Assembly (NCBI RefSeq): GCF_003335045.1
Contig: NZ_QOZG01000007.1
Location: forward strand, 186,001 to 250,000
DNA: 64,000 nt
Source: Paramesorhizobium salinisoli
GTDB taxonomy: Bacteria; Pseudomonadota; Alphaproteobacteria; Rhizobiales; Rhizobiaceae
Direction of reading: 5' to 3'
In this document: positions 56,685 to 64,000 of the stretch, one piece after another
Position numbering within the stretch: the first letter of the stretch is position 1
Layout: each line of letters opens with the position of its first letter
The notes under the pieces: generated by a model
The model's input: the letters and a program-made list of their open reading frames with translations, nothing else
Databases searched by the model: none
Told to the model about the DNA's origin: nothing
Made by a program: the position numbers and the translations under genes

Positions 56685-56899
56685 GGAAGAACCTCGATCC
56701 CGACCATTACAGGAAAATAGCCGCAATTATTGTTCCCGATCTCCTCGCGCAATACGGGAAAGCTGCTCCGCCCGCCCGCACAATTCATCTTCTTGTCATC
56801 AAACCATAATGCTCGCCGAGCATAGTAGATGGACATCCTGCCGCTTCAGTCAGGCCCATCCGGGAGCGTCTCTCCCGGGAAGATTACCGGAGAACGATC
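56685..56899 (+). promoter_or_regulatory. Upstream region of the large LysM gene
   Basis: 215 bases. A hairpin (TCCGGGAG-CGTC-TCTCCCGGGA) lies about 15-40 bases before the ATG, with a GGAGA ribosome site after it. No rhizobial tts box could be recognised. Confidence 0.35.
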
Positions 56900-59800
56900 A
56901 TGTCCTACCGCATCGATATTGATGGAAAATATCGCTACAATGCAGCGGGTAATCGCACGTCTGTCCTTTCGGACGAACAGCAGCGCCTGTTCCAGGCCGA
57001 GATCAACGAGGCGATAAACGAGCGGGCGCAGGCGGGCGGCTCTGACAAGATCGATCCTCTCAATGAAAAGGCCGTCGTCATTGAGAATGGCGACAGCCTG
57101 TGGGAAATCGCCCGCGAGAACAATGTCAGCCTCGACGATCTGCTGGCGACCAACAAGATTGAGCTCGGTGCGACCGACGGGGTGATTCAACCCAACGAGG
57201 TGCTGATCGTGCCGCTGAGCTCGCCGGAAGTCGTGGCGAACGGACCTGTTGACAGCAACGGCGTGCCGGCTGGAGAAGACGCCTTTATCAGCGATCTCTA
57301 CGAGCGGGGCAATGAGCTGGAATATGCCGACGATCCCTCGCAGATCGACCATGAAGCCGAAACGCGAGCCATGCAGGAGGATGTCGGAACCTATCTCGAC
57401 AACCTGCCGGAATCAGAACGGCAGGAGGCGGCACTGCGTCTGGCCGAGAGCGACTGGCGTGATGCCGGTCCGGCCGGCACCGCCATCACAGTGGCCATCG
57501 AGGAACGTGGCCTCAAGACCGAACGGGAAGACATCTTTGCTGGTGAGATCTATGACCGCGGCAATGAAATCCAGTATTCGGATGATCCCAATATCGATTA
57601 TCAGACCGAAACGGCCGAAATCACCAGTGATGTGAAGACCTATATCCAGCAATTGCCGGAAGGCGAACGGGCCGGTGCGCTGCAGCGGCTCTTTGACCGG
57701 GAATGGCAGGATGCCGCGCCCGCGCAGACGGCAATCGAGAATGCGGCAAACGAGCTCGGCATCACTTTGCGCCCCTCCACCCATGCCGGTGTGGATCTTG
57801 AAGAGAGGGCCCGGCAGATTATCGACGCCGCCAATGCAACGGGGGAGCCGGACAAGGCTTTCCAGCAATTCAGTGAATCCTATGCCTCCGCGCCCGCCGA
57901 TCTGCAGCAGGTGCTCCTGCGCTCCGACGATGCCGATCAACTGATCCGCAACGCTGCGGATTGGGCGACGCAGCCGCTCGCCGAGTACGATCCGGAGAGC
58001 GCGACCAGCGATCAGGGCGACGCCGCGACGGTGATGGCGAATTTGGAAAAGCTGACGGACGGCGTCGATCCGAAACTCGCTGTCGATCTCCTCTCCGCAT
58101 CGATGCCGACCATCGAGGCTGCAAATACCCGGCGCCAGGAGATGATTGGTAGTGAGTTGATCGGAATGAATGGTCAGATGGACCTGATGGAGATCATCGA
58201 CCGCATTGGCGGCACGCCGGGCGCTGACGCCATCGTCGAACGTTTCGCCGCACTGGGCGGCTATAACATAAACTCCATACCGCCGGCGATCGCCAATGGT
58301 TCCCGCCTGGATTACCCGCTGGCCGTGGCCGCGGAATATGGGTCCACCAGCCCGGATTTCGTCACCCAGAACATCATTCCGAATGTCGAGCAATACGCCT
58401 CTACGGTCAACGGCAGTATCGACGCCTATGCCACACATATGCAGGAACTGCAGTGGCTGATCGCCAATCACGGATCGACGATGACGCCGGAACAGCTTGA
58501 GCAGGCCGTCGAGGATTATAAGACCGAAAAAGGGCCTGACTGGCAGGCGACGGAAGAGCGCCTGGAAAACGATATCGCCGAACAGGGCGGGAAGCTCCTT
58601 ACGCAACTGACGGCGCTCGGCAACCTGCCGCCGGAACTGGCGTCGCAGCAAGCCGCAGTCGATGAGCAGATCGGTCAGATCCTGTCGGACGAAAAGACGG
58701 CCATGGCGATCGATATCGCCATGAAGACGAATCCCGAACTGCTCGACAATCCGCAGGTCGTTAACTTCCTGGGCGACCAGGCCCGCCTGACCGACCGCGG
58801 CCGCAAGCTGGCGGAGGAGGCGACGACGCAGATCGTCCGGCGCACGGTTCTGCCGTCCTTCAGCGAACTCGACGTAAACAATCCCGCCAGTCTCGAACGG
58901 GCCAGAACCAGCCTCGAAAACATGAAGAGCAGCACCCTGTCGTCCTTGCTGGGTATCCCCGAAAGCGATATGAACAGGGCTATCGATGCCGTCAAACAAT
59001 CGCTGCCGGAGCCTGGCGACACGGTTGAGCAGGCGAGAGCCAAGATGGCGCAGCTCGACAGCGATCTCAATGATCTGCGCAGTTCGAGCGGTATCCGGTC
59101 CTTCGCCAACACCACGGTTCCCGGCCAGTTGCTGCGCATGGTCGGCGTCGCGGCGACGGGGGCGACACTGAGCAATTCAGCAACGAATCTGCAGAACGAC
59201 CCGACGCTGAAAAACGGCCTCAAGGTCGTCATTGATGCGGTAGGTCTTGGTCAACGCACAGTCGAAATCCTCGGTGGAATGGACCGGATCGACGCCGATT
59301 CCGCTGCCGTGCGGCACTTCGGCAGCTCGAGCAAGCCAGCAGTGAAATTCCTCGGAGCGCTCAGCGCAGGGTTCGATGCGTGGAATGCCGTCGATCATTT
59401 CAGGGCCGGCGACCCGCTCATGGGCAGCCTGTCCGCGGTCGCGGCCGGCGGCACGGTCATGGCGGCCCTGGGCACGGGCACGATGTTCGGACCTGCCGGA
59501 CTTGTGATCGTCGGAGCCGCAGTCATCGGCCAGATGATCGTCACCGATACCCGGGCGTCCAATGTCTATATGACCGATACGTCAAAGCAATTCCTGGAGT
59601 ATGCAGGCCTTGACGAGGATGTGGCAGGTGCCCTGGTCGATCAAAGCGGCGATGGTTTCAGCGCCGTGCCGCTCCTTGCCCGATATGCCGAGATGAAGGG
59701 TTTCGAGCTAGACCAACCGGCGGATCGCCAGCAGTTCATCGACTGGCTGAACAATATGCCTCACGAGAGCCTGGAGGCGCTGCGGGATAATCTGCACCAC

Positions 59801-60022
59801 ACGCTCGACGATTTCGGAGGTGATGTTTCCAAGCTGGGCGCCACGTCCGAAAACGATTTCCAATATACCGATCCCGACGAGCTGAACTACCAAATTACCG
59901 GCACAGGTGTTTACGTTCCAAGCCTCGCCGCCAGTATCCAGTCCGGCGATGCCCATCCATCATCGGTGGCGCAGATCGATGTGGTTCTGGAGCAACTAGG
60001 GATCGATATTCCGGTCGCGTGA
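56900..60022 (+). CDS. 1040-residue LysM-domain protein, candidate type III secretion substrate or translocator
   Basis: One LysM domain at about residues 58-111 (NGDSLWEIARENNVSLDDLL, then VIQPNEVLIVPL). Two adjacent homologous units follow at about 127-207 and 210-289, each opening with an ED-x-F segment, (Y)ERGNELEYADDP versus YDRGNEIQYSDDP, and ending in WxDAxPAxTAI. The middle is acidic and helical. At about 840-881 lies a Gly/Ala-rich hydrophobic stretch (AAGGTVMAALGTGTMFGPAG), followed by an EF-hand-like DQSGDG. No signal peptide. It converges on the sct operon with 21 bases between. Resemblance in layout to HrpK-type translocators is only suggestive. Confidence 0.6.
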   Translation: MSYRIDIDGKYRYNAAGNRTSVLSDEQQRLFQAEINEAINERAQAGGSDKIDPLNEKAVVIENGDSLWEIARENNVSLDDLLATNKIELGATDGVIQPNEVLIVPLSSPEVVANGPVDSNGVPAGEDAFISDLYERGNELEYADDPSQIDHEAETRAMQEDVGTYLDNLPESERQEAALRLAESDWRDAGPAGTAITVAIEERGLKTEREDIFAGEIYDRGNEIQYSDDPNIDYQTETAEITSDVKTYIQQLPEGERAGALQRLFDREWQDAAPAQTAIENAANELGITLRPSTHAGVDLEERARQIIDAANATGEPDKAFQQFSESYASAPADLQQVLLRSDDADQLIRNAADWATQPLAEYDPESATSDQGDAATVMANLEKLTDGVDPKLAVDLLSASMPTIEAANTRRQEMIGSELIGMNGQMDLMEIIDRIGGTPGADAIVERFAALGGYNINSIPPAIANGSRLDYPLAVAAEYGSTSPDFVTQNIIPNVEQYASTVNGSIDAYATHMQELQWLIANHGSTMTPEQLEQAVEDYKTEKGPDWQATEERLENDIAEQGGKLLTQLTALGNLPPELASQQAAVDEQIGQILSDEKTAMAIDIAMKTNPELLDNPQVVNFLGDQARLTDRGRKLAEEATTQIVRRTVLPSFSELDVNNPASLERARTSLENMKSSTLSSLLGIPESDMNRAIDAVKQSLPEPGDTVEQARAKMAQLDSDLNDLRSSSGIRSFANTTVPGQLLRMVGVAATGATLSNSATNLQNDPTLKNGLKVVIDAVGLGQRTVEILGGMDRIDADSAAVRHFGSSSKPAVKFLGALSAGFDAWNAVDHFRAGDPLMGSLSAVAAGGTVMAALGTGTMFGPAGLVIVGAAVIGQMIVTDTRASNVYMTDTSKQFLEYAGLDEDVAGALVDQSGDGFSAVPLLARYAEMKGFELDQPADRQQFIDWLNNMPHESLEALRDNLHHTLDDFGGDVSKLGATSENDFQYTDPDELNYQITGTGVYVPSLAASIQSGDAHPSSVAQIDVVLEQLGIDIPVA

Positions 60023-60028
60023 GATCGG

Positions 60029-60049
60029 GACTAAGCCAAGTGCTTAGTC
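60029..60049 (+). terminator. Bidirectional hairpin between LysM gene and sctT
   Basis: GACTAAGC, loop CAAGT, GCTTAGTC: perfect eight-base-pair stem between two convergent genes, overlapping the sctT stop codon. Likely ends both transcripts, although T-runs are short. Confidence 0.6.
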
Positions 60050-60886
60050 TTCCGCCCCGGGGTTTGGTGCAGGAACATCAGACACCGTCATGCGCAGCAT
60101 GTCGAATGTGCCGGACATATCGCCGATCTGCGAAAGCATGAGAGGGACGAGGAACATCGCGTAAAGCAGGATCAACACGCAGAAGAGCAGGTTTTTGATC
60201 GCCAGCGAAAGGTCGAATACGTGCAGTTGCGGCGAGAGGCGGGAGAGATAGGCAAGCATCAGATCCGCGATCAGGATGGCCAGTACAACAGGTGCGATGA
60301 GGAGCAGGGCGATCTGCATGATACGGTCGAGAGCGCCTAAAAGGGCGGAAACAGCCTCGGATCCCATGACGGGCGTAAAGCTGGCGATCGGCCACAGATC
60401 GTAGCTTCTGTAAAAGCCGTCCAGGAGCAACAGAAACCCGCCGGACATGAAGAAGAGCGCCACGAGCGAGATGCTGAACAGCGTCGCGGAAATGCTCGCC
60501 TCGTTTATTGCAAGCGGGTCGACGAGCTGTGCTGATGTGGAACCCCGCTGCAAATCGACAAGATCGCCGGCAACTTCCGCCGCCCAGAACGGAATGCCGA
60601 AGGCGATCCCGATGATGATCCCGATCACGAATTCTTTGATCATCAGGCCCGTCATGATGATGCTTGTGAGATCACGGTGTTCAGCCATGGCGGACATAAT
60701 GCCGGGAACAACGGGAACGCTGATGGCGATCGCCACACCCGAGCGGAGAAGGCCGGTGAGGCCCAGCCGCGTGAACGCCGGTGTCACCACTACCACGCCG
60801 AGCGCGCGCGACATCGCCATGGCGGTCGCAATCAGCAAGGGATAGGCGAACTCGATAATGGAGAAGGTCGCGGCCGTTGCGTCCAT
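60044..60886 (-). CDS. sctT: Type III secretion export-apparatus protein SctT
   Basis: 280 residues with six or more hydrophobic segments, FliR/SctT family. Conserved blocks: RALGVVVVTPAFTRLGLTGL, VIGIIIGIAFGIPFWAAEVA and the functional core GDLVDLQRGSTSAQLVDP. It forms the entry gate with SctR and SctS. Starts eight bases after sctS. The DLQRG with STSAQ fits virulence/symbiosis systems more than the flagellum. Confidence 0.9.
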   Translation of the reverse strand: MDATAATFSIIEFAYPLLIATAMAMSRALGVVVVTPAFTRLGLTGLLRSGVAIAISVPVVPGIMSAMAEHRDLTSIIMTGLMIKEFVIGIIIGIAFGIPFWAAEVAGDLVDLQRGSTSAQLVDPLAINEASISATLFSISLVALFFMSGGFLLLLDGFYRSYDLWPIASFTPVMGSEAVSALLGALDRIMQIALLLIAPVVLAILIADLMLAYLSRLSPQLHVFDLSLAIKNLLFCVLILLYAMFLVPLMLSQIGDMSGTFDMLRMTVSDVPAPNPGAED

Positions 60887-60894
60887 AATGTGGC

Positions 60895-61173
60895 TCAGCG
60901 TGTCACGACGGGAAAGGTATCGAGCACCTGCCCGGCGAGATTGGTCACGTGCAGGGCTAGCGCCGGTCCGAAAACGATGAGCACGAGCATCACCGCGACG
61001 AGCTTGAAGGCCTGTGGCAGCGTCTGGTCCTGGATCTGCGTCAATGCCTGGATCAGACCGACGCTAATGCCGATCAGGATGGCGATGCCGAGGGCAGGCG
61101 CCGAAACCAGGAGAACCGTCAGCAGCGCATTCTGCATTTGGGAGAGAAAGATGTCCTGTCCCATCACGCTCAC
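60895..61173 (-). CDS. sctS: Type III secretion export-apparatus protein SctS
   Basis: 92 residues with two membrane helices (LLTVLLVSAPALGIAILIGI and LVAVMLVLIVFGPALALHVT) separated by the conserved VGLIQALTQIQDQTLPQAFK gate loop. FliQ/SctS family, complete. ATGA overlap with sctR. Confidence 0.92.
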   Translation of the reverse strand: MSVMGQDIFLSQMQNALLTVLLVSAPALGIAILIGISVGLIQALTQIQDQTLPQAFKLVAVMLVLIVFGPALALHVTNLAGQVLDTFPVVTR

Positions 61174-61823
61174 CCGTAGCTGAGGATGAGGCCGTGCATC
61201 AGCCGCGACCAGCCGTCGACGGCGACGAATAGGAATATCTTGAGCGGGATGGAGATCAGCGTCGGCGAAACCATCATCATGCCCATCGCCATCAGCACGT
61301 TCGAGACAATGAGGTCGATGACGAGGAACGGGATGTAAAGCAGGAAGCCGATCTCGAACGCCCGGGTCAGCTCCGAGCTGACGAAGGAGGGGATCAGCAC
61401 CACCAGATCATCCGGCTGGAGATCCGCACGCGCTTCCGGCGACCAGACATTTTCGGTCGCGTTCAGGAAGAACTGTTTCTCCTTATCGTCGGTAAATCGG
61501 GATAGATGCTCCTGCAGCGGCGGCCGCAGCCTTTCGGCGGCTTCCCTGATTCCTTCGAGCGACTGCACATCGACGGGGCGACTTTCGATCAGGCGGTACA
61601 TGTTCCCGACCAGGGGCGTCGTCACATAGACCGTCAGGATGAGCGCAATTCCGTAGAGCACGAGATTGGGCGGCGATTGCTGGATGCCCAATGCATTGCG
61701 GACCAGGAAAAGCACGATCGATATCTTGAGAAAGCCCGTCATGGTCACGACCGCCAGCGGGATGAGTCCGATGGTTGAGACCAGCAGGATGATCGGCAGC
61801 AGATTCGAGGAGGCACTATCCAT
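61170..61823 (-). CDS. sctR: Type III secretion export-apparatus protein SctR
   Basis: 217 residues, FliP/SctR family. TGFLKISIVLFLVRNALGIQ, QSPPNLVLYGIALILTVYV, PSFVSSELTRAFEIGFLLYI and VLMAMGMMMVSPTLISIPLK are strongly conserved. No signal peptide, as in non-flagellar SctR. Overlaps sctQ by eight bases. Confidence 0.93.
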   Translation of the reverse strand: MDSASSNLLPIILLVSTIGLIPLAVVTMTGFLKISIVLFLVRNALGIQQSPPNLVLYGIALILTVYVTTPLVGNMYRLIESRPVDVQSLEGIREAAERLRPPLQEHLSRFTDDKEKQFFLNATENVWSPEARADLQPDDLVVLIPSFVSSELTRAFEIGFLLYIPFLVIDLIVSNVLMAMGMMMVSPTLISIPLKIFLFVAVDGWSRLMHGLILSYG

Positions 61824-62088
61824 TTTCGGCGATACGCACCACTCGAACGCCTAGACCCTCGCCGATCTTCACGAGGTCGCCTTTGCCGATGCGCCGGCCA
61901 TTGGCGAGGATATCGACCGCGCTATCGACGCCGGGTGCGGTCAAAAGCACGCTGCCTTCCGCCAATTGCCGGATTTCACCGAGGGTAAGTTCACGGCGGC
62001 CGATCTCGAAAACAAGCTCGACCGGCAGATCGTCCAGATCAATGTCCTTCGCTTGTGGCTTGCCTGAGGGTCGGCTTTTCGCTTCCAT
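61816..62088 (-). CDS. Putative internal translation product SctQ-C
   Basis: Inside sctQ, ATG 62088 is preceded by AGGGAA five bases away (complement of 62094-62099), a better ribosome site than that of many genes here. It would give a 90-residue protein, MEAKSRPSGKPQAKDIDLDD followed by the whole C-terminal SpoA domain. In Yersinia YscQ and Salmonella SpaO, an internal start makes exactly such a short form that is part of the ring. Presence of the start is seen; translation is inferred. Confidence 0.6.
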   Translation of the reverse strand: MEAKSRPSGKPQAKDIDLDDLPVELVFEIGRRELTLGEIRQLAEGSVLLTAPGVDSAVDILANGRRIGKGDLVKIGEGLGVRVVRIAENG

Positions 62089-62877
62089 GATCGTTCCCTG
62101 ATTGTGATTGGATTTATGCCAGGAACCCGCAGCCCTGAAGCCATCAGGCCCCCTGAGCGCGCGTGCGGCATATCGGTTGGCCAGCAGCGCTTCCGCCTGA
62201 TCTTCCCGTGCTTCATCGATGAGGACGATATCACCCGGGCGAAGGCTCGTGAGTTCTGCATAGCTCAGCGACTGACGACCGGCCATTATCTGCAACGGCA
62301 CCGGAATATCGTCACCGATGGTGTTCTGCGCTGGCGGCGCGACGCTGGGGAGGTATGCGGCCATAATCTCCAGGGCACCGATCGGCAGATGCAGCTCCGC
62401 GATTGCCGCGACATTGCTTGAGACCACCTGCCACGGTGTCTTGATCAACGGCGTCTCCGGTTTTCCGGCGCCGTCGAGATGGACCGGTTGCCCGATATCG
62501 TCCTCCAGCTTTTCAAGCACGTCCGCCAGCGCATGTTCCATGAGGAGCGCGAGCGAGACCGGGGAAAGGCCCGAAGCGGCTTTCCCACCCGTTACCGGCT
62601 CAAGCACCCGTTCCGCTATCGCCAAGGGCAGGGCGAGCTTTCCCTCCCACGAACCGATCGTCAGCGGCAGTTCGACGAAAGGCCGAGTGATCGATGCCCA
62701 GGGCCTGGCAATATGGATTTCGACAGTCAGACCTTCATGCGGCAGGCTCAGGGGCAGCCGGGGACAATAAAGCGCATTCAGACTTTCAAGGCAGCCCATG
62801 GGTAGCCTGGGCAGCCACCGATCCGCTTCCATGACCTTCGATGAATTTGAGGCCAATTGTATCCGTTCCGCCCTCAT
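61816..62877 (-). CDS. sctQ: Type III secretion cytoplasmic-ring protein SctQ
   Basis: 353 residues. N-terminal region, then two SpoA domains: one around 195-240 (PLQIMAGRQSLSYAELTSLR then GDIVLI) and the C-terminal one from about 280 (LPVELVFEIGRRELTLGEIR, VDILANGRRIGKGDLVKIGE). It forms the sorting platform that recruits substrates. ATGA overlap with sctO. An internal ATG at 62088 would release the second SpoA domain separately. Confidence 0.88.
   Translation of the reverse strand: MRAERIQLASNSSKVMEADRWLPRLPMGCLESLNALYCPRLPLSLPHEGLTVEIHIARPWASITRPFVELPLTIGSWEGKLALPLAIAERVLEPVTGGKAASGLSPVSLALLMEHALADVLEKLEDDIGQPVHLDGAGKPETPLIKTPWQVVSSNVAAIAELHLPIGALEIMAAYLPSVAPPAQNTIGDDIPVPLQIMAGRQSLSYAELTSLRPGDIVLIDEAREDQAEALLANRYAARALRGPDGFRAAGSWHKSNHNQGTIMEAKSRPSGKPQAKDIDLDDLPVELVFEIGRRELTLGEIRQLAEGSVLLTAPGVDSAVDILANGRRIGKGDLVKIGEGLGVRVVRIAENG
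62094..62099 (-). promoter_or_regulatory. Internal ribosome binding site for SctQ-C
   Basis: TTCCCT on the plus strand, AGGGAA in the mRNA, five bases before the internal sctQ ATG. Spacing and strength fit a genuine initiation site. Confidence 0.55.
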
Positions 62878-63377
62878 TTGCCGGCGCGCCTTCTCAAACC
62901 GGAAGTGGAGCGCAAGGCCGACTGCTCCTCCTCTTCCAATTCGCTCTGCATTGCCGCCTCGCGGTGCCTTTGCTCAAGACGCTGCTGTGCCAGCAAAAGG
63001 ATCTTGTCATGCTCGCGCAACCTCCGGTGATGTTCCCGGTGCTTTTCCTGCTGCCGCTGCGTTTCGGCCGCTAGAAGGTCCTTGGCAGACTGCTCAGCCT
63101 GCTTCAGATCGTCCGCCTTCCGGGCGAGTGCATCCATAAATTCACGCTCCTGCGCGAGTGCCTGGCTGCTGACGGGCTGAAGCGCCATCTGATCGATCGC
63201 CGCCTGTTCCTGCGCGCGCCGCATATCGTCGTGCCGGGCTATGTCCTGGACGGCAGCGTGCACGCCGCTCTCCGCCTGCCGCCGCACCCCGTTCTGCAGC
63301 AAAAGCGCATTCTCACTGAGCGTCATGCGCATGCGACGCAGCTTCAGAAGCCTTTCCAGATGTCGCTCATTGGTCAT
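62874..63377 (-). CDS. sctO: Type III secretion stalk protein SctO-like
   Basis: 167 residues, almost entirely charged helix ([40 protein letters not shown]), with heptad-like spacing of a long coiled coil. Length, composition and position between sctN and sctQ fit the FliJ/YscO/HrpO stalk that sits in the ATPase ring. Sequence conservation in this family is low, so the call rests on context. ATGA overlap with sctN. Confidence 0.8.
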
Positions 63378-64000
63378 GAGGCAAATTCACCCATTCGCGC
63401 GACGGTGGACGAAAACGCCGCTGGCTCGCCGGTCTGTTGCCTGAGGAAATCCTCTATGTGTTGCCGCTTGTCGATCGCCTCGTCCGATTTCGGATCATTG
63501 CCGCGCTGATATTCGCCGACGCGCAGGAGAAGCTCGATATCGTCATAACGTGCCAGAAGCTCGCGAAGATAGGCTGCGCTCGCCCGATGCGCCTTCGAGG
63601 TGACGCTATCCATAAGGCGGCTGCGGCTGCGCAATATGTCGATCGCCGGGAAGTGATTGCGCCGGGCGAGTTCGCTGCTCAGAACGATATGGCCGTCGAG
63701 GATGGATTTCGTCTCCTCGGCGACCGGATCGAGCGTGCCGTCGCCCTCCGTCAGTACCGTGTAGAGCCCGGTGATCGATCCGCCGGTGCCCGGCCCGGCC
63801 CGCTCCAGCAGTTTCGGCAGGGCTGCGAAGAGCGACGGAGGAAAGCCGCGCCGGGTCGGCGGCTCGCCCGCCGCCAGCCCGATCTCGCGCTGTGCGCGCG
63901 CAAACCGGGTAATGCTGTCCATGAGCAGCAGAACGTGATGACCTTGATCGCGGAAATATTCGGCGATGGCCGTCGCTCCATAGGCGGCCTTGACCCGCTC
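63374..64000 (-). CDS. sctN: Type III secretion ATPase SctN, C-terminal part
   Basis: The minus-strand frame runs off the window edge; about 208 C-terminal residues are present. [20 protein letters not shown] with the Walker B aspartate, [40 protein letters not shown] and [20 protein letters not shown] identify the FliI/SctN family. Walker A is outside the window. It unfolds and feeds substrates into the secretion channel. First of the visible, fully coupled sctN-O-Q-R-S-T series. Confidence 0.93.

Follow-up and report, generated by a model that had tools for sequence, protein, structure and literature searches.

Type III secretion systems (T3SS) of the Rhc-II group, which includes T3SS-2 of Sinorhizobium fredii NGR234, are widespread in Sinorhizobium and its relatives, and the parts of the published accounts available to us give their role as unknown (PMC3973906, PMC9569860). 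In the excerpt of Gazi et al. that we consulted, NGR234 T3SS-2 is described as lacking the gene for the hypothetical HrpK-like translocator of its P. syringae relative (PMC3574062). Genes NGR_b22800-b23010 of NGR234 are upregulated in bacteroids, all 22 in Leucaena and 8 of the 22 in Vigna, according to the portion of the report available (PMC3732241). Here we analyse a 64,000-nucleotide stretch of the genome of Paramesorhizobium salinisoli (assembly GCF_003335045.1, contig NZ_QOZG01000007.1, positions 186,001 to 250,000; hereafter the window), in which a gene for a giant LysM protein of 1040 amino acids, the founding member of what we call family A (56900..60022, + strand), converges on a row of sct genes. 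Many root-nodule and soil bacteria carry family A beside the genes of a second T3SS. The gene sits at an sct locus in most of the alphaproteobacterial relatives and co-occurs with this type of T3SS. We tentatively propose, giving the idea slightly less than an even chance, that family A is a dedicated component of the Rhc-II system (T3SS-2), an export substrate that is translocator-like and not a host-specific effector.

The T3SS of the window is assigned to the Rhc-II kind, that of NGR234 T3SS-2, from SctJ identity and gene order and without a tree. Its SctJ is 69% identical to that of pNGR234b versus 52% to NolT of pNGR234a, the gene content and order match those of L098, L099 and L100, and the core proteins are closest to those of NGR234 T3SS-2. 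The pNGR234b orthologue of the window protein is 67-68% identical over its full length. It lies directly behind sctT, whereas the window gene converges on sctT. Counting genes from rhcN (NGR_b22950) via sctO, Q, R, S and T, the orthologue would be NGR_b23010, which ends the published T3SS-II locus, and the same count would place it within the range upregulated in bacteroids. In the parts of the accounts of that locus available to us, no function is printed for NGR_b23010 (PMC3973906, PMC3732241). We found no description of a family A protein in the open-licence literature searched on LysM and T3SS, Rhc-II, HrpK, translocators and NGR tags. The view, taken in an earlier reading of the window made without database searches (the sequence-only reading), that no protein of this layout had been described thus holds for the literature searched, but an orthologue, as placed by gene count, lies inside a published locus.

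An N-terminal alignment scan of the genome collection, which works via two short peptide patterns and is non-exhaustive, gave 33 loci with family A. These come from Sinorhizobium, Rhizobium, Phyllobacterium, Nitratireductor, Paramesorhizobium and others, as well as from Halomonadaceae and Stutzerimonas, and some share a genome (L035 with L041; L042 with L057). Both the N- and C-terminal regions are kept in 31 of the 33. Genes of an sct cluster lie within 10 kb in 19 loci, and the linked loci come to 21 once two Nitratireductor genes, located behind a giant of 2.5 thousand amino acids at the sct locus, are added. Weak SctV-like and SctS-like matches at L034 were judged flagellar. SctJ (TIGR02544) scores over its cut-off in 31 of the 33 genomes carrying family A (31 genomes reached via the loci, 29 of them SctJ-positive, plus G000 and G138).

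The base rate of SctJ is far lower, at 19 of 151 genomes in the own family and 17 of 121 in the family of Billgrantia G172. Family A is present in 5 of the 151 (the window's own genome and copies at 65, 53, 43 and 34% identity), after the LysM-only match of G016 was dropped from an initial six. Strong matches occur in 4 of the 121, after five genomes with LysM-only matches (E 4.8e-5 or weaker) were dropped from nine. All positives, 5/5 and 4/4, also have a T3SS; the hypergeometric chance of this, calculated without the query genomes and ignoring kinship, is 1.5e-4 in the own family and 2.0e-3 in the Billgrantia family. Most T3SS-positive genomes lack family A (14/19 and 13/17, respectively), so the gene marks a subtype of T3SS. 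On plasmids, 377 records match the own SctJ, and among the best 60 listed 17 do so at 65.7% identity or more, a line drawn once the drop to the next record (61.3%) was known. Family A is carried by 15 of these 17, in one case as a chimera and in another in four pieces. A sixteenth plasmid record with family A, S. fredii SMH12 (CP035038), is outside the 60 listed, and its locus shows other sct genes and no SctJ. None of the other 360 SctJ-matching records has family A, unless SMH12 is among the 317 that are not listed.

Relative to NGR234, family A is 68% identical, compared with 78% for SctR, 71% for SctN, 66% for SctJ, 56% for SctV, 45% for SctD and 36% for SctQ, and in all 11 loci compared its identity exceeds those of SctD and SctQ wherever these were measured. 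Judged by these identities, it reaches the SctJ/SctN level in Sinorhizobium-like loci only. Conservation within the range of machine parts argues, though not decisively, against a host-specific effector. It is unlikely that the protein is a conventional effector, injected to act within a eukaryotic host cell, of which the LysM domain and repeats form only the delivery half. Its presence on 15 of the 17 plasmids among the best 60 of 377 SctJ records would be high for an effector, the same C-terminal region is kept in 31 of 33 loci, and no catalytic domain scores over the cut-offs of Pfam and NCBIfam; what such an effector would account for is the lower conservation relative to SctJ and SctN outside Sinorhizobium, and an N-terminal module common to proteins with different C-termini.

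This modularity is evident on the Ensifer adhaerens NER9 plasmid, where a 1473-amino-acid protein in the family A position behind sctT has residues 1-202 in common with family A (62% identity), also shows a repeat-to-repeat match to it, and continues into an unrelated C-terminus. A further two proteins, of 1399 and 1416 amino acids (Mesorhizobium J18 and Phyllobacterium YR531), match family A over residues ~1-366 and 3-352 before continuing into DUF4781; neither fusion has sct genes nearby, and both genomes are T3SS-positive. A common N-terminus followed by different C-termini is known among type III effectors as terminal reassortment, and exchanged C-termini behind the family A N-terminus, as expected of effectors and polymorphic toxins, were found in NER9 and in these two fusions (L022 and L023). 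In the latter two (L022:7338-11534, L023:8750-12997) the C-terminal end includes a GHGVDLF...VVAEIKA-like sequence, without a Pfam match, which is by eye reminiscent of a PD-(D/E)XK nuclease core.

The sequence-only reading had described a 1040-residue protein without signal peptide, with an N-terminal LysM, a tandem duplication of roughly 80 residues, a long acidic helical centre and a Gly/Ala-rich hydrophobic stretch near residue 860, and all of these were recovered. The coding score of the open reading frame is the top value in the own-genome locus L012, and conservation across an alignment of 31 sequences, the own one included, rejects a chance reading frame. LysM (PF01476) at residues 60-105 (57077..57214, +) scores 31.1 bits against a cut-off of 20.9, is the sole Pfam family over cut-off in the protein, and matches the PDB profile 4b8v (Extracellular protein 6; E 1.3e-7). 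Self-alignment places the two repeat units at residues 126-205 (57275..57514, +) and 210-288 (57527..57763, +), with a score of 203 versus a mean of 29.7 and a maximum of 51 in 500 shuffles. Hydropathy reaches at most -0.36 over the first 60 residues, and at most 0.35 across the 31 aligned sequences; a signal peptide was thus not identified from N-terminal hydropathy, no dedicated predictor being used.

The acidic helical centre spans approximately residues 299-725 (57794..59074, +), as defined by charge and an AlphaFold2 model. Most segments of the protein are acidic, with net charges of -20 for residues 300-500 and -15 for 500-700. The model, built from 31 sequences (mean per-residue confidence, pLDDT, 77.5; pTM 0.60), is helical from residue 126 to ~725, thus including the repeats whose structure the sequence-only reading wished to see predicted, in blocks mostly of pLDDT 70-95. 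Its last 150 residues are confident. Kyte-Doolittle hydropathy peaks in the Gly/Ala-rich region at residues 840-858 (1.51) and 863-881 (1.97, the maximum of the whole protein); the maximum falls in this C-terminal region in all 31 aligned sequences and is at least 1.6 in 25 of them. The DQSGDGFSAVPL loop (residues 914-925; 59639..59674, +) has several invariant or nearly invariant alignment columns. It had been read as EF-hand-like, which fits the translation in its first half only, as position 12 is Leu925 and not an acid, and no EF-hand family was found in the Pfam scan. LysM apart, no toxic or catalytic domain is over cut-off in Pfam, and none is in NCBIfam. A weak match to a type VI secretion effector family (NF041559; 18.7 bits versus a cut-off of 150, and 13.5 bits for family B, described below) was set aside as a sub-cut-off score that probably reflects the hydrophobic region. 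Foldseek and VIA searches for relatives of solved fold gave weak matches alone, mostly to helical repeats.

The C-terminal hairpin region (residues 815-953; 59342..59758, +), which contains the hydrophobic peaks at 840-881, aligns to a second family of giants, family B, with an hhalign probability of 98.8% (E 5e-17, score 150.9; reversed and shuffled controls at most 25.8). On this profile evidence, the hairpins of families A and B are homologous. Family B is encoded in the same cluster as family A in the own genome (L013:2291-5806), adjoins it in L028, L030 and L099, and is also found in L014/L015 and in L024, where there are no sct genes around. The family B N-terminus is LysM-like in profile comparison alone (89%, E 2e-6): the LysM hidden Markov model (HMM) built from family A finds no LysM in family B, and Pfam none in the L013 and L099 proteins scanned. 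The own-genome and S. meliloti copies of family B are only ~25% identical.

The sequence-only reading had also suggested that the protein might be HrpK-like, and had proposed a remote-homology comparison of its C-terminus. Membership of the HrpK family is rejected, since PF16937 has no match up to E 10 in the family A protein and a separate HrpK gene lies nearby in seven loci carrying family A; no PF16937 match at E 0.001 or below occurs in the own genome. A likeness of the hairpins, which we regard as suggestive only, was found. The family A hairpin aligns with those of HrpK neighbours at an hhalign probability of 36% (E 4e-4, score 45.0; reversed and shuffled controls at most 23.2). Taken singly, HrpK C-termini score 25.2, 29.4, 21.5, 30.8 and 27.3, and 312 hydrophobic control stretches reach 25.1; four of the five therefore beat all controls, one by 0.1, and as the five are close relatives they are not independent tests. 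Another giant, family C (~1195 amino acids; L098:24873-28463, -), is highly conserved near family A in NGR234, R. sullae, S. saheli and others. It has no Pfam or NCBIfam match, and was rejected as a relative because profile comparison with A, B and HrpK gave no likeness. The C-terminal end of family C matches a protein of 227 amino acids that neighbours the NER9 chimera and is annotated with LysM (E 1e-7).

Several observations weigh against a dedicated, translocator-like component. Twelve of the 33 loci have no sct gene within the ~10 kb read on each side: eight in Halomonadaceae, one in Stutzerimonas, one in a metagenome-assembled genome (L037), and two DUF4781 fusions (L041, L042). The sequence-only reading would have given up its proposal if homologues were regularly found far from any T3SS locus; these twelve go some way towards that, yet ten of them sit in genomes with SctJ elsewhere. 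Two genomes with family A have no SctJ over cut-off (the L037 metagenome-assembled genome and L046, Billgrantia), and with Billgrantia SctV as query no T3SS-type SctV was identified in either, a 36% match alone being read as FlhA. A wall protein that stays in the cytosol or is exported by another route, and is carried along with the cluster without being a T3SS substrate, would explain both the Halomonadaceae copies without sct genes nearby and the two SctJ-negative genomes; the co-occurrence with T3SS in two families and on plasmids argues against it, and we consider it very improbable. Two T3SS-2 plasmids, of Phyllobacterium 628 and T1293, have a DUF4781 protein of 2.1 thousand amino acids behind sctT in place of family A. 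Family A is less conserved than SctJ and SctN in Phyllobacterium (52-53% versus 67-68% and 75-76%; in L100 52, 67 and 75%) and in Stutzerimonas L054 (38% versus 56% and 65%). The hairpin is modelled at low confidence, with pLDDT below 50 throughout region 759-887, and its likeness to HrpK could reflect a common Gly/Ala composition. Plain HMM searches across 1189 genes ranked the HrpK of R. johnstonii (E 0.002) highest among proteins other than A and B and listed no further HrpK; searching in the opposite direction recovered A at E 0.26 or worse. The profile likeness to HrpK is weak. Among the 23 sequences scanned, no sct operon was preceded by the conserved element that lies upstream of family A and is described below. 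An NGR234 mutant lacking seven T3SS-II genes (b22890-b22950) had no defect in symbiosis, as reported in the portion of the source available (PMC3732241), so a role in the plant is only putative.

LysM domains bind peptidoglycan or other polymers of N-acetylglucosamine (GlcNAc). This, together with the lack of a Sec signal, suggests that family A would leave the cytosol through the T3SS itself, and we think it is probably exported by the Rhc-II machine and may help that machine to dock on or pierce its target. The N-terminal module would carry the export or docking information, LysM would tether the protein to the bacterial wall or to a target surface resembling chitin, the acidic helical centre would serve as an extended spacer, and the hairpin may insert into the target membrane. 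Family A, with B and/or HrpK where present, could thereby work as a translocator-like part. Of the proposal in the sequence-only reading that the protein is a type III-exported translocator or effector, the T3SS partnership (linkage and co-occurrence) and the hydrophobic C-terminal hairpin were borne out, and membership of the HrpK family was not.

The LysM domain, the missing signal peptide and conservation in the range of machine parts would also suit a factor for assembly or anchoring that is bound to peptidoglycan, leaves early through the T3SS, is held in the periplasm by LysM, and works with the L,D-transpeptidase beside sctU. Flagellar FlgJ, which is exported without a signal peptide, provides an analogy. 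Such a transpeptidase is annotated in four of the five annotated plasmid clusters that reach past sctU (L099, L100, L117 and L142; none is annotated in L119). The two plasmids of this T3SS type without family A both have the transpeptidase, Pfam finds no hydrolase domain in family A, a length of 1040 residues with a hydrophobic hairpin would be odd for such a role, and the NER9 protein has an unrelated C-terminus. We consider a wall anchor rather unlikely.

A broader form of the translocator-like reading, which we hold to be doubtful, is that Rhc-II systems export a class of giant modular LysM proteins, with the family A module as a portable export-and-docking cassette and LysM binding a GlcNAc polymer of a non-plant target. 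The class would comprise A, perhaps B, and the LysM/ALTTAQ/DUF4781 giants of 2.5-3 thousand amino acids. If true, the target would be other than a plant cell, namely the bacterial wall or the chitin of fungi or protists. DUF4781 occurs in 3 of the 151 own-family genomes, all three T3SS-positive. DUF4781 giants of ~2.0-3.0 thousand amino acids were identified beside sct loci of Nitratireductor, Mesorhizobium, Phyllobacterium and Billgrantia (L034:13130-20743; L135:6485-15547, where DUF4781 is just under cut-off; L136:10896-17789; L117:24219-30635; L137:14040-19901), with the Billgrantia match at 27.2 bits, just below the cut-off of 27.9. Some of these also carry LysM, ALTTAQ repeats or SH3_3; LysM was found in two of those scanned (L034 and L135).

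In the window, the family A gene directly faces sctT, as the sequence-only reading stated, with a gap of 21 bp and sctT identified by PF01311. The convergent genes, all on the - strand, are sctT (60044..60886), sctS (60895..61173; PF01313), sctR (61170..61823; PF00813), sctQ (61816..62877; PF01052), an sctO-like open reading frame (62874..63377) and sctN (63374..64000; PF00006 and PF18269), which continues past the window edge and encodes 470 amino acids in L012. The sctO-like frame has no Pfam match and is named from its position and 34% identity to the SctO-type protein of L100, where YscO is annotated. Past the window follow sctL, J, I, F, a secretin N0 protein, sctD, V, C, a TPR protein and sctU, of which sctL, sctI and sctF are named from gene order. 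On the far side, after sctU, are the 1171-amino-acid family B giant and then a patatin-like phospholipase (L013:6174-7286, +; PF01734), a candidate type III effector. The own genome has a second, more distant SctJ (G000:C25:4127-4684; 176 bits, over cut-off), which perhaps belongs to a second type III system.

A conserved element, TGTCATCAAAC (56794..56804, +), lies 106 nt before the family A start codon and has one match in the window versus 0.03 expected. Among the 23 sequences scanned whole it has 14 matches in 14 sequences, every one before a family A gene. As TGTCAT[CA]AAAC, 93-162 nt before the start codon, it is conserved across genera (window, L012, L014, L016, L025-L029, L031-L033, L035, L098, L100, L101 and L118, with only 300 nt upstream read for L031, L032 and L118), and it is kept before the NER9 chimera. 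A TTCATNAAACTGTAAC variant is found in L038, L039 and L043-L045, and neither form was identified in the Nitratireductor and Halomonadaceae upstream regions read. The element resembles a Pho box, and is possibly half of one; 9-11 of 14 positions of the Pho box consensus match where the element is present, mostly weak relative to shuffles. A motif common to the family A upstream region and the sctD/N0 intergenic region was rejected: the own genome offers a single 14-mer, with one mismatch, that two Phyllobacterium loci do not share, and the sctD/N0 region lacks the conserved element.

A T3SS-linked DUF4781 giant is already in print for Burkholderia cenocepacia, in the part of that source available (PMC12580581). 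With polymorphic toxins and terminal-reassortment effectors, family A shares the use of one N-terminal module before different C-termini; unlike polymorphic toxins, the window protein lacks a recognised toxin domain. Usually present with this T3SS type, well conserved, and combining LysM with a putative membrane hairpin, family A makes a good candidate for the contact or translocation component still missing from the Rhc-II T3SS, and offers a single gene with which to test what this machine does. The window protein differs from HrpK1 and HrpF in being without PF16937 and in having an N-terminal LysM and repeats; it is like them in its giant size and T3SS linkage, and has a C-terminal hydrophobic hairpin of helix-GD-helix form with a weak profile likeness to theirs.

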